A stretch of DNA of 64,000 bases, taken from Haloterrigena salifodinae (GTDB lineage Archaea > Halobacteriota > Halobacteria > Halobacteriales > Natrialbaceae). This document shows, in pieces, positions 52,854 through 57,510 of this stretch. The notes under the pieces were generated by a model. That model was not told where the DNA came from, ran no database searches, and saw nothing but the letters and a program-made list of their open reading frames with translations. The stretch lies in assembly GCF_003977755.1 (NCBI RefSeq), contig NZ_RQWN01000002.1, positions 310,001 through 374,000 of the forward strand, written 5' to 3'. The first letter of the stretch is position 1, and each line of letters starts with the position of its first letter. The position numbers and the translations under genes were made by a program.

Positions 52854-53651
52854 TCAGGCCTGAAGCGCCAGTCCGGCCGCTTCCAGCGCTTCGTCGGTCG
52901 ACAGATCGTCGTGGACGACGCCGGAGACGGCGGTCGCGATGGCCTCGGGGTCCTCGTGCTGGAAGACCGAGCGGCCCATCGAGATGCCGGCGCCGCCGGC
53001 GTCCATGACGCCCCGGACCATCTCGATCGTTTCGCGGTCGGTGCCCTTCGAGCCGCCGGCGATGACGACCGGGAGTCGGGTCGACTCGGCGACGTGTTCG
53101 AAGCTCTCAGCGTCGCCGCTGTAGCCCGTCTTGACGATGTCGGCGCCGAGTTCCTCGGCGAGGCGGACGGCGTGGCCGAGCGCCTCGGGATCCTCGGAGT
53201 CGACGCCCGGACCGCGGGCGTATGCCATCGCGAGGACCGGCATGCCGAGGCGCTGGGCGTCTTCGGTGACCTCCGCGAGCTGGGCGATCTGGTCGGGTTC
53301 GTGATCGGAGCCGACGTTGATGTGGAAGGAGACGGCGTCGGCGCCGACGCGGACGGCCTCTTCGACGGTGCCGGTCATCCGTTTGTCTTGCTCGTCGGGA
53401 CCGATCGTCGTCGAGCCGTTGAGGTGGACGATGTACCCTTTGTCGTTTTTGTGCTCGTGGACGCGGGAGGCGATCCCCTTCTGGGTGAGGACGGCGTCCG
53501 CGCCGCCCCGGGTCACGCCGTTGATGGTTGCTTCGATGTCTTTCAGTCCCTGAACGGCTCCCATCGTGATCCCGTGGTCCATCGGGATGATCACGTAGGA
53601 GTCGTCTGTGCCAATTCTGTCGAGTCGCGCGTCAATACCTGTGGTAGTCAT
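52854..53651 (-). CDS. aroA': 2-amino-3,7-dideoxy-D-threo-hept-6-ulosonate synthase (archaeal shikimate entry)
   Basis: A 265-residue class I aldolase of the DeoC/FbaB fold. IIPMDHGITMGAVQGL starts the barrel, VLTQKGIAS and HLNGSTTIGPD follow, and the Schiff-base lysine lies in ADIVKTGYSGD. GGSKGTDRETIEMVRG binds phosphate. In archaea it makes ADTH, which DHQ synthase II (24960-26177 here) converts to 3-dehydroquinate. The relative fructose-bisphosphate aldolase is possible, but its place 24 nt behind trpA favours the aromatic pathway. Confidence 0.9.
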   Translation of the reverse strand: MTTTGIDARLDRIGTDDSYVIIPMDHGITMGAVQGLKDIEATINGVTRGGADAVLTQKGIASRVHEHKNDKGYIVHLNGSTTIGPDEQDKRMTGTVEEAVRVGADAVSFHINVGSDHEPDQIAQLAEVTEDAQRLGMPVLAMAYARGPGVDSEDPEALGHAVRLAEELGADIVKTGYSGDAESFEHVAESTRLPVVIAGGSKGTDRETIEMVRGVMDAGGAGISMGRSVFQHEDPEAIATAVSGVVHDDLSTDEALEAAGLALQA

Positions 53652-53675: not shown

Positions 53676-54539
53676 TTATGGCTGTTCTGGTTCCGGTGTA
53701 TCTTCCGCATCGACCGTGAGAGACTCCGCGCCCCGAACTGCGCCGCGTTTGAGTTCCTCGGCTTTGGCCTCGAGATCGGCCGCCGGATCGTCGCTGCCGG
53801 CGACGATGTCTATCAGCGCGCTGCCGACGATGACGCCGTCGGCGCCGGCCTCGACGATCTCGGCCGCGTGGTCGCCCTCGCTGACGCCGAAGCCGACCGC
53901 CTTGGGGACGTCGTACTCCGAGAGGCGCTCTAAGCTCTCGTGGGTCGCCGTCGAAACGTCCGCGCGGGCGCCTGTCGTCCCGAGGCGGGCCTGAACGTAG
54001 GCGAAGCCCGAGACCTGCGACATGATCGTCTCGAGGCGCTCGCCTTCGGTCGTCGGCGCGACGATGAAGACCAGATCGAGGCCGTGGTCGTCGCAAGCCT
54101 CGCGCAGCGGGTCGGCCTCCTCGGCAGGGAGGTCGGGGACGATGATCCCCGAGAGGCCGGCCTCGGCCGCGCGCTCGACGAAGGGGCGGACATCCGGCTC
54201 CGAACCGTATTGGAGGATCATGTTGTAGTAGGTCATCACCAGCAGCGGCGCCTCGGTCTCGAGGTCGTCGACCAGCTCGAAGAAGCCTTCGGGGGTCGTT
54301 CCCGCGTCGAGCGCCCGGTTGATCGCGGCCTGGATCGTCGCGCCCTCGGCGACCGGTTCCGAGAACGGCAAGCCGAGTTCGATCAGGTCCGAGCCGCCTC
54401 GATCGAGGGCCTCGACGTACCGCTTGGTGTCCTCGAGCGAGGGATCGCCCGCGGTGATGTAGGTGATGAGCGCGGGGTCGTTCTCGCGGATGGCGGTCTC
54501 GATGTCGCTTTCTGGGGCGGCGTTCGAATCGTCAGTCAT
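53676..54539 (-). CDS. trpA: Tryptophan synthase alpha subunit
   Basis: A 287-residue TIM-barrel protein that splits indole-3-glycerol phosphate. The catalytic glutamate is in [15 protein letters not shown] and the aspartate in [26 protein letters not shown] and [11 protein letters not shown] bind phosphate. It overlaps trpB by 4 nt (ATGA). The C-terminal tail is acidic and slightly longer than in bacteria. Confidence 0.97.
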
Positions 54540-55852
54540 CCGTCGAACACCTCCACGTCCGGTGCCGCCTCGAGATCGCGTTTCTCGGTCTCCTCGAGGA
54601 CCGTCTCTAAGTCCTTGTCGCCGCGGCCCGAGACGTTGACAACGACGAGGTCGCCCAGCTCGTCGTGCGATTCCTCGAGGTAGCCGAGCGCGTGACTCGA
54701 CTCCAGCGCCGGGATGATCCCCTCGAGTCGCGAGAGCCGGTGGAAGCCGTTGAGCGCGGCCTCATCGTCGACGCTGACTGGCGTGACTCGCCCCGTCTCG
54801 GCGAGATACGAGAGTTCGGGACCGACGCCGGCGTAGTCCAGTCCTGCGCTGACGCTGTGGGACTCCATGATCTGGCCTTCCTCGCTCTGGAGGAGCTTTG
54901 TCATCGCGCCGTGGAGGACGCCGTCGGTCCCCGTCGAGAGCGTCGCGGAGTTGGGCGCGAGCCCCTCCTCGGCGTCGATCTCGAGGCTCGAGCCGCCGGC
55001 CTCGACGGCGTAGAGGTCGACGTCCTCGTCTCGCGGGCTTCGCCCGCTCGATTCGTTCGCGAACCGTGGGTCCGCGCAGTCCGGCACGAACTCGTGGAAG
55101 GTCCCCATCGTGTTCGAGCCGCCGCCGGCGCAGGCGACGACGCTGTCGGGCAGGCGGCCGGCCTTTTCTCGGATCTGCTCGCGGGCCTCGCGGCCGATGA
55201 CGGCCTGGAAGTCCCGGACCAGTTTCGGGAACGGGTGCGGGCCGACCACGCTACCGATCACGTAGTGGGTCGTCTCGACGGTGGTTGCCCAGTCGCGGAA
55301 CGTCTCGTTGATCGCTTCCTTCAACGTCCCGCTGCCGGCCTCGACGGGGTTGACCTCGGCCCCGTTCATTCGCATCCGGTAGACGTTCGGGCGCTGGCGG
55401 TTGACGTCGGTCCGGCCCATGTAGATCTCGCAGGGCATGTCGAGGTGGGCCGCGGCCATCGCGGTCGCGGTCCCGTGTTGGCCCGCGCCGGTCTCGGCGA
55501 TGATCCGCTCTTTGCCCATGTACTTCGCGAGCAGGACCTGTCCAAGCGCGTTGTTCAGTTTGTGCGCCCCGCCGTGGACGAGATCCTCGCGCTTGAGGTA
55601 GATCTCGCGGTCGTATCGCTCGCTGAGTCGGTCTGCGCGCTGGAGCGGCGTCGGTCGCCCGCCGAAATCGTGCATCCGCTCGCGGAACTCGTCCATGAAG
55701 CCGTCCTCGTTTTCGAGGACGTAGCGCTCGTAGGCGTCCTCGAGTTCCTGTAACGCCGGCATCAGGGCCTCGGGGACGTACTGGCCGCCGTAGTCGCCGA
55801 ACGTGGACTCGCTGTCGCGCTCGCGGTTGTGTTCGGGATCGCTCGTGCTCAT
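54536..55852 (-). CDS. trpB: Tryptophan synthase beta subunit
   Basis: A 438-residue PLP enzyme of the TrpB1 type that joins indole and serine. [17 protein letters not shown] is the classic start, the PLP lysine lies in [14 protein letters not shown], and [12 protein letters not shown] binds the phosphate. [16 protein letters not shown] and the final NVSGRGDKD also match. Its start codon overlaps the stop of a 12-codon micro-ORF (55849-55887), which in turn overlaps trpC. Confidence 0.98.
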
Positions 55853-55887
55853 TGCTCGTCTCCGTCGGTGAGTGTGTATTCGCTCAT
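55849..55887 (-). CDS. 12-codon micro-ORF coupled to trpC and trpB
   Basis: ATG at 55885-55887 opens a frame reading [12 protein letters not shown] and a TGA at 55849-55851. Its ATG overlaps the trpC stop and its TGA overlaps the trpB start, each by an ATGA tetranucleotide. It thus fills the gap between the two genes exactly. It may serve translational coupling, or be a chance frame. The peptide has no recognised motif. Confidence 0.4.
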
Positions 55888-56723
55888 GTCTCGTCGTCCT
55901 CCGCCTCGACCAATCGCCGGGTGTTCTCGGTCACGTCGCTGTCGCCCGCGCCGTGGTCCATGATGGCGCTGCCAACCAACAGGGCGTCGGCGCCAGCCGC
56001 GCGCATCCGGCGGACATCCGCGGGCGAGGACACGCCGCTCTCGGCGATCAGCGTTACGTCGTCCGGAACCCGTCTCGCGGCTTCGCCGCTCGACTCGTCG
56101 AGGCGCGTCATACGCCTCGCATAGGGCGCCACCGACTCGAAGGTTTCGAGGTCGACCTCGAGTCGCGCCAGATCCCGGTTGTTGACGCCGATAATCTCGG
56201 CGCCCGCCTCGAGGGCGGTCTCGAGTTCCGCCCGGTCGTGGACCTCCACGAGCGGCTGGAAGCCGCGTTCGCGGGATGCGGCTACGAGTTCCCCGAGCGT
56301 CTCGGGCTCGAGGAAGCGGACGATTAGTAACAGGAGATCGGCCGCGACGGCATCCAACTGCGCCTCGCGGAGGAGGAAGTCCTTCCGGAGGACGGGGACG
56401 TCGACGGCCTCACGGATCCGGGTCAGCGACTCGGTGGACCCGCCGAAGTGGCTCGGCTCGGTGAGCACCGAGATGGCCGTCGCGCCGCCATCGACCATCG
56501 CCTCCGCCAGTTCGACGGGATCGTCGTCGCGAGTCCCGTCGGCGGTGGGGCTCGTCGGCTTTACCTCGGCGATCACCGGAACGCGGCCGTCGGCCTCGGC
56601 CCGCGCGACGGCGTCAGGCAGCGACCGCGCGTCGACGTCGACCACCTCGTCGCCTCCGGGGCGCTCCCGGGCGGCCTCGAGGATCGACTCGACCGCCGGT
56701 GCGAGATCCGTATCAGTCTCCAT
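55884..56723 (-). CDS. trpC: Indole-3-glycerol phosphate synthase
   Basis: A 279-residue TIM barrel and the first gene of the operon. [14 protein letters not shown] is the substrate-binding start with its catalytic lysine, [13 protein letters not shown] and PVLRKDFLL follow with the general acid lysine, and IIGVNNRDL and LIAESGV complete the site. It closes the indole ring in tryptophan synthesis. Genes trpD, E, F and G are not in the window. Its promoter carries paired TGTACA boxes. Confidence 0.96.
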
Positions 56724-57039
56724 TGTTGTACATCGACGTACTCATATGTACAAAAGGCTTGCGCCATCGGGGCGCGATTCTCGAGTTACAGGTGTTTGCG
56801 GTGGCGCGCGCTGTGGCGCGGTGAACCGCGGCTCGACACTGCGCGAGGGATGAGGACCGCAGTGACGGAGGAGCGAGGACCGTAATCGGCTGGGGAGGGT
56901 GTGGCGCTCATCGTTGCCAGGAATTGCAGACCGCTCGTATCTTCGTCGAAAACGGAGTTATTACGGAACGGTGTCCTACCGATTCCGTTCAAATGCGTCG
57001 ACCGGCGATTATTCAAGTCCCTACCGCTTACGATGACGT
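56724..57039. other. Divergent spacer between trpC and the alkyltransferase-like gene
   Basis: This 316-bp region holds the trp operator and promoter at 56726-56755. The middle (about 56770-56920) is GC-rich, with GCGAGGGATGAGGACCGCAG and GGCTGGGGAGGG, which resemble dispersed intergenic sequence seen in related haloarchaea; this is recollection only. The part near 56930-57039 is AT-richer and should hold the promoter of the plus-strand gene. Confidence 0.45.
56726..56753 (-). promoter_or_regulatory. trp operator: paired TGTACA boxes
   Basis: A perfect 8-bp inverted repeat, TTGTACAT and ATGTACAA, flanks 12 bp; the two TGTACA cores are 20 bp apart, two helical turns. The near box lies 3-10 bp before the trpC ATG and the far box overlaps the expected TATA position for a leaderless start. 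TGTACA is the known TRP box bound by TrpY in Methanothermobacter. Confidence 0.65.
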
Positions 57040-57510
57040 ATGGAGGACGTCACGGATGCCGGAATCTACGCGCGGGAATCGTCGTACCTCGATCGACACG
57101 TCCAGCTCGGGGCCGCCAGCGGACGCGTGCTGAGCGTCACGTTTCCCGAGCGACCCGACGACGACGCCGAGACGGACCACCCCGTGCTCGACCGCATCTT
57201 CGAGTACCTCGACGGACTCGAGGAGATCACCTTCGACGACGTGCAGGTTGCCCTGACGGTGCCGACCGACCAGCGGGCCGTCCTCGAGTCAGTCCGGGAG
57301 ATCCCCTACGGCGATCAGGTCACCGTCGACACGCTCGCGAGGATGACCTCCGGGCTCGACCACGAAGACGAGGACGACGTCATTCTCGTCCGAACCGCCT
57401 TGGACCAGAATCCGGCGCCGATCCTTATTCCGGACCACCGCGTGCGCGACGGCCCCAGCGCCGCGCCCCCGGCTGTCGAACAGAAGTTGCGCTCGCTCGA
57501 GGAACTGTAG
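57040..57510 (+). CDS. Alkyltransferase-like (MGMT-related) protein lacking the active cysteine
   Basis: A 156-residue protein. Its C-terminal half follows the O6-alkylguanine-DNA alkyltransferase pattern: REIPYGDQVTVDTLA (87-100), a helix with VRTALDQNPAPILIP, then PDHRV at 131-135. In active MGMT this motif is PCHRV, so the methyl-accepting cysteine is replaced by Asp132. Proteins of this type (ATLs) bind alkylated bases and flag them for excision repair. The N-terminal 80 residues form a beta-rich domain, as in MGMT. DNA-lesion binding is inferred. Confidence 0.78.
   Translation: MEDVTDAGIYARESSYLDRHVQLGAASGRVLSVTFPERPDDDAETDHPVLDRIFEYLDGLEEITFDDVQVALTVPTDQRAVLESVREIPYGDQVTVDTLARMTSGLDHEDEDDVILVRTALDQNPAPILIPDHRVRDGPSAAPPAVEQKLRSLEEL

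Follow-up and report, generated by a model that had tools for sequence, protein, structure and literature searches.

TGTACA is the TRP box of Methanothermobacter TrpY, and trpB2 is one target of this regulator. Trp has been reported as residue 2 of Methanothermobacter TrpY and its homologues, although it is no criterion of the family model, and Trp2 was proposed to link the translation of trpY with charged tRNA-Trp in Methanothermobacter. PMC6737238 summarises binding and tryptophan-dependent repression by Methanothermobacter TrpY. In Thermococcus kodakarensis, TkTrpY (TK1227) belongs to the same protein family as the haloarchaeal TrpY; the Thermococcus homologue is 42% identical to the Methanothermobacter protein but shows no trp binding or regulation (PMC6737238). 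In Thermococcales, Tar (TK0271) controls trp and other aromatic operons, a role like that predicted here for TrpY, but it is a different protein and an activator.

In Halobacterium salinarum, the Lrp/AsnC protein LrpA2 combines an HTH with an ACT-like ligand domain, as TrpY does, and responds to aromatic amino acid starvation. We know of no link of Lrp/AsnC regulators to the TGTACA operator, and no binding-site data for LrpA2 were found in the literature. A 2019 survey of TrpY homologues could not estimate the functions of the haloarchaeal, other-methanogen and Archaeoglobaceae branches (PMC6737238). Neither TGTACA nor a TrpY regulon was described for haloarchaea in the open-access literature that was searched, and none of the papers found assigned a regulator to haloarchaeal tryptophan synthesis.

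The repeat in front of trpC

The sequence at positions 56726-56753 of the window, i.e., the whole stretch of 64,000 nucleotides of Haloterrigena salifodinae DNA that was analysed, is TTGTACATCGACGTACTCATATGTACAA. An earlier note had described a perfect TTGTACAT-N12-ATGTACAA repeat directly upstream of trpC, with TGTACA cores 20 bp apart and the far box over the expected TATA position, and it is present exactly so (Table 1). Because trpC is read from the minus strand and its ATG is at 56723-56721, only 3 nt lie between the near box and the start codon. The far box and a TATA-like element (minus strand CGCAAGCCTTTTGTACA) overlap, the core of this box sharing bases with TTTTGTAC. The spacer contains a third GTAC that the earlier note did not mention, and the TGTACA repeat therefore forms the outer portion of a 26-bp palindrome whose three GTNC cores follow an exact 10-bp period.

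The window contains a single TGTACA-N(8-20)-TGTACA, and 100 shuffles gave none; the 28-bp pattern, with a free spacer and up to 3 mismatches, had a single occurrence in the 4.96-Mb genome. Two other single TGTACA in the window (26113 and 60102) are consistent with chance, about two being expected.

Table 1. Features of the trpC locus (window coordinates) and non-haloarchaeal exact-pattern sites (locus identifiers)
Feature	Position or locus	Strand	Basis
26-bp palindromic trp operator TGTACA-TATGAGTACGTCGA-TGTACA, trpC coding strand	56727..56752	-	Pattern and profile matches, conservation
TGTACA core distal to trpC (promoter side); overlaps the TATA-like element	56747..56752	-	Column conservation
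Middle core GTAC (GTNC in relatives), at 10 bp from either outer core	56738..56741	-	Column conservation
TGTACA core proximal to trpC, 3 nt ahead of its start codon; transcription expected to start at or close to it	56727..56732	-	Column conservation; leaderless transcripts common in Haloferax volcanii (PMC4983044)
Conserved BRE/TATA-like core promoter CGCAAGCCTTTTGTAC	56748..56763	-	Column conservation; BRE/TATA assignment putative
trpC, first gene of the operon	55884..56723	-	ORF and homology
trpB	54536..55852	-	ORF; trpB reference for other-lineage searches
trpA	53676..54539	-	ORF; reference for other-lineage searches
aroA' (ADH synthase-like, step one of the archaeal aromatic pathway)	52854..53651	-	ORF
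Exact-pattern sites at trpC, non-haloarchaeal	L188-L190		
Exact-pattern sites at trpE, non-haloarchaeal	L185, L186, L194		
Exact-pattern sites at trpB2, non-haloarchaeal	L177, L184		
Exact-pattern sites at tryptophanyl-tRNA synthetase, non-haloarchaeal	L181, L182		
Exact-pattern sites at TrpP-like transporter, non-haloarchaeal	L176, L179		
Exact-pattern site at aroA', non-haloarchaeal	L192		

By analogy with trpCBA-OE1472F of Halobacterium (PMC4162585), aroA' probably belongs to the trpC operon. The divergent gene upstream of trpC (window 57040-57510), a common neighbour of haloarchaeal trpC, resembles an alkyltransferase-like (MGMT/ATL) protein. Conserved neighbours upstream of trpC, named by sequence reading, look like an MGMT-like gene, a CPBP protease and LonB; no transcription-factor gene conserved beside or upstream of trpC was recognised among the haloarchaeal trpC loci. 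Three genomes of a single genus (G003, G012, G023) have one in-frame TGA within the trpC match, which may simply be at the C-terminus.

Conservation and specificity in haloarchaea

Exact TGTACA-N14-TGTACA was found in 57 of 145 haloarchaeal genomes, from 28 of 59 genera, and the reversed control pattern gave no match in the same 145 genomes. Among 30 exact-pattern loci that were fetched, 26 sites lay immediately before trpC and one before trpD; L016, L030 and L038 were judged unrelated or unclear. Inspection of trpC upstream regions in relatives showed that the boxes are kept at the same place in 80/80 haloarchaeal promoters. The paired outer boxes scored 9 to 12 of 12 in all 80 named trpC loci and at least 10 in 78 of them, compared with null rates for a score of 10 of 0.08% in 120-nt stretches drawn at random from these loci and 0.26% in shuffled promoters. 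The operator was exactly 3 nt from the ATG in all 67 distinct trpC operator sequences, in which the central GTNC core had frequencies of 0.99 for G, 0.96 for T and 1.00 for C.

At haloarchaeal trpD, 49/50 promoters scored at least 9, nearly all with the site some 38 nt ahead of the start codon. This version has an extra phased core, four being visible as GTAC-GTAC-ANNC-GTAC, and lies downstream of a TATA-like CTTAAG; in the genome studied here, it is located at G000:C1:293428-293456.

A sequence-only profile, R1, built from trpC, trpD and other-lineage sites and run at E values up to 5, gave 70 matches over 39 haloarchaeal genomes, with 67 at trpC, trpD or trpB promoters. Of these, 39 are at trpC (among them two shifted registers of the element and a few sites matched on both strands) and 27 at trpD; a displaced trpBA accounts for one more, and three are unrelated. 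In the genome of H. salifodinae itself, R1 matched at trpC and trpD only. The recall of R1 is not independent, because haloarchaeal sites helped to build it, but the near-absence of non-trp matches in haloarchaea is independent of profile building. The paired TGTACA before trp genes is, almost certainly, a genuine site of regulation. The displaced case comes from a deep haloarchaeal lineage (G021), in which a strong operator (L294:1576-1602) precedes trpBA rather than trpC, as if it had moved with the rearranged operon.

TrpY and the operator across the phylum

The blind exact-pattern search covered 148 genomes of the phylum (with the reversed control pattern in four of them). Outside the haloarchaea, 13 of 20 sites read were upstream of Trp-related genes (Table 1), the names trpE, trpB2, TrpRS and TrpP being given by sequence reading or by homology to references so named; trpB2 and trpB are about 31% identical. 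New non-haloarchaeal sites obtained with R1 lay upstream of trpC, trpD, trpE, trpB2, TrpP or aroA' in 17 of the 19 cases fetched. Among 33 genomes of families that lack strong sites, R1 gave only eight weak matches, six of them at trpB, trpB2 or aroA'. To judge from their genes, the non-haloarchaeal lineages with the operator would be methanogens and relatives.

Seven exact-pattern sites (L175, L178, L180, L183, L187, L191 and L193) and five profile sites (L265, L268, L272, L295 and L296) were judged unrelated or unclear, as were two profile sites inside coding genes (L255 and L262). The top-scoring non-haloarchaeal operator is L178:2030-2055 (G152), TGTACATAAAAGTACAATCATGTACA, with an E value of 7.7e-4; the lactate-permease-type transporter-like gene that follows it is possibly a new tryptophan-regulated transporter. 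At L191:2025-2050 (G164), an exact operator pair lies 21 nt before a small gene in which no function was recognised.

A search for a TrpY homologue in the genome found a single one, a protein of 167 aa (G000:C3:398666-399166) whose residues 2-164 matched NCBIfam TrpY_fam (NF053754) with 244 bits, above the curated cut-off of 180. All 26 aligned relatives matched this model at E <= 0.001. The family is single-copy in 40/40 named haloarchaeal genomes tested and present in 143/148 genomes of the phylum; two of the five genomes without it are incomplete. An AlphaFold2 model (mean pLDDT 89) displays a winged-helix pattern at residues 13-67, read from secondary-structure order alone, and an ACT domain at 94-166; the Pfam ACT match was under the Pfam cut-off. 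Foldseek returned ACT-domain PDB structures and, weakly, Lrp proteins, and the sequence search gave no convincing PDB relatives.

The haloarchaeal system resembles that of M. thermautotrophicus (trpY-trpEGCFBAD) in its TGTACA boxes at trp promoters, on the TATA and start region, and in encoding a TrpY-family protein; another likeness is the operator at trpB2 in several non-haloarchaeal lineages. It differs in that the trp genes form two separate operons, with trpY away from them (trpY on contig C3, trpC on C2, trpD on C1). The haloarchaeal trpY promoters carry no boxes (scores of 5-8 of 12), and autoregulation of trpY through TGTACA boxes was therefore rejected. Three to four cores in a strict 10-bp phase may also set the haloarchaeal sites apart. 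Finally, residue 2 is Phe in 23/24 haloarchaeal TrpY proteins (L125-L148), L148 alone having Trp2, which is also found in the TrpY proteins read from other lineages (L149-L174).

In the tree, a deep TrpY clade (families f14 and f17), whose presumed recognition helix has DRKVV or DRNVV, stands apart from the DRRVV type. Members of the deep clade (L155-L164, L172, L289 and L290) have no such operator at their trp genes. Neither the exact nor the profile search found operators at Trp genes in f14 and f17, with divergent TrpY, or in f19, without TrpY. However, the profile found no site in f11, f23, f24, f27, f28 and f30 either, despite a TrpY of DRRVV or similar type. As TrpY is in almost every genome and several TrpY-bearing families lack the site, co-occurrence is a weak test of the link between the two. 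A diverged recognition helix without the operator may help to explain why the Thermococcus homologue, a protein that is absent from the tree, does not regulate trp.

The earlier note had proposed that a TrpY-like repressor controls the haloarchaeal trp operon with the TGTACA motif, which would extend a methanogen system across a deep divide. The first proposal is well supported by the sequence data, with boxes in every trpC promoter aligned and the TrpY family present. The second gains from the same operator at trp genes of other TrpY-bearing lineages, so that the TrpY link does not depend on one short motif. The predicted trp regulon is wider than the earlier note had proposed.

A proposed tryptophan switch and its alternatives

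The best explanation, which we hold with good confidence, is that the element is the operator of a haloarchaeal tryptophan regulon repressed by a tryptophan-sensing TrpY-family protein. We infer TrpY as the binder, tryptophan as the signal and repression as the sign of control. The repressor would be the 167-aa wHTH-ACT protein, probably a dimer, with tryptophan sensed by its ACT domain. When tryptophan is plentiful, TrpY would occupy the row of GTNC cores along one DNA face. With one helical turn between them, the cores face a single side of the DNA, which suggests that two or more dimers bind cooperatively. In Haloferax volcanii, 72% of protein-coding transcripts are leaderless (PMC4983044), and the trpC operator therefore probably spans the region from the TATA box to the transcription start. 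At trpC, the row of cores extends between the TATA box and the start codon, and binding would therefore block TBP/TFB and polymerase. At trpD, it begins a little downstream of the TATA box and covers the expected start site, and binding there would block initiation. Through this shared control, the trpCBA-aroA' and trpDFEG operons would be switched together. Joint induction of trpCBA and trpDFEG without aromatic amino acids was reported in H. salinarum (PMC4162585). One observation speaks against a tight switch: 2007 work as cited in PMC13147458 described the trpCBA promoter of Haloferax as not tightly regulated.

The binder is probably a TrpY-type repressor. That the operator is real but bound by an Lrp/AsnC-family protein such as LrpA2 (Trh1) seems unlikely, even though depriving H. 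salinarum of aromatic amino acids induces LrpA2 14.9-fold (PMC4162585) and Lrp proteins, with their HTH and ACT-like domain, are among the fold matches of the TrpY model. Lrp proteins are many per genome (seven in H. salinarum, PMC4162585), whereas the site is at two haloarchaeal operons only, and trp genes carry the same operator in other TrpY-bearing lineages. In addition, TGTACA is the established box of TrpY.

We also give little credence to the possibility that TrpY binds the operator but mainly activates, or senses aromatic amino acids broadly. The aromatic operons of Thermococcus do use an activator, Tar (PMC6737238), and sites precede aroA' in other lineages (L192, L260, L266 and L270), but nearly all remaining targets are tryptophan-specific and the overlap with the TATA and start region is the geometry of a repressor. 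Finally, it is very hard to maintain that no regulator is involved and that the conserved bases reflect only inherited similarity and a core promoter (BRE, TATA, initiator): the distal box does overlap the TATA-like element and the adjacent BRE/TATA bases are equally conserved, but the trpD element keeps its cores and 10-bp period downstream of its own TATA-like box, trpY promoters lack the element, and the whole-genome profile picks almost only trp promoters, with other Trp genes elsewhere.

We lean, with more reserve, towards TrpY and the 10-bp-phased GTNC operator being the ancestral tryptophan regulon of the phylum, predating the split between haloarchaea and the methanogen relatives. Haloarchaea would have retained a two-operon switch, and methanogens also the control of tryptophan uptake, tRNA charging and TrpB2, with phased cores allowing several TrpY dimers to sit side by side on one face of the promoter DNA. 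This suggests that the TrpY/operator regulon is one of the more ancient amino acid regulons that can be traced in archaea.

The trp operator is an operator for an already known regulator family and fills a recognised gap. It provides the haloarchaeal TrpY branch with a specific prediction, namely a short operator, two target operons and a single-copy candidate protein in genetically tractable hosts. TrpY, so far proven in one methanogen, thereby gains testable targets across a whole archaeal phylum.
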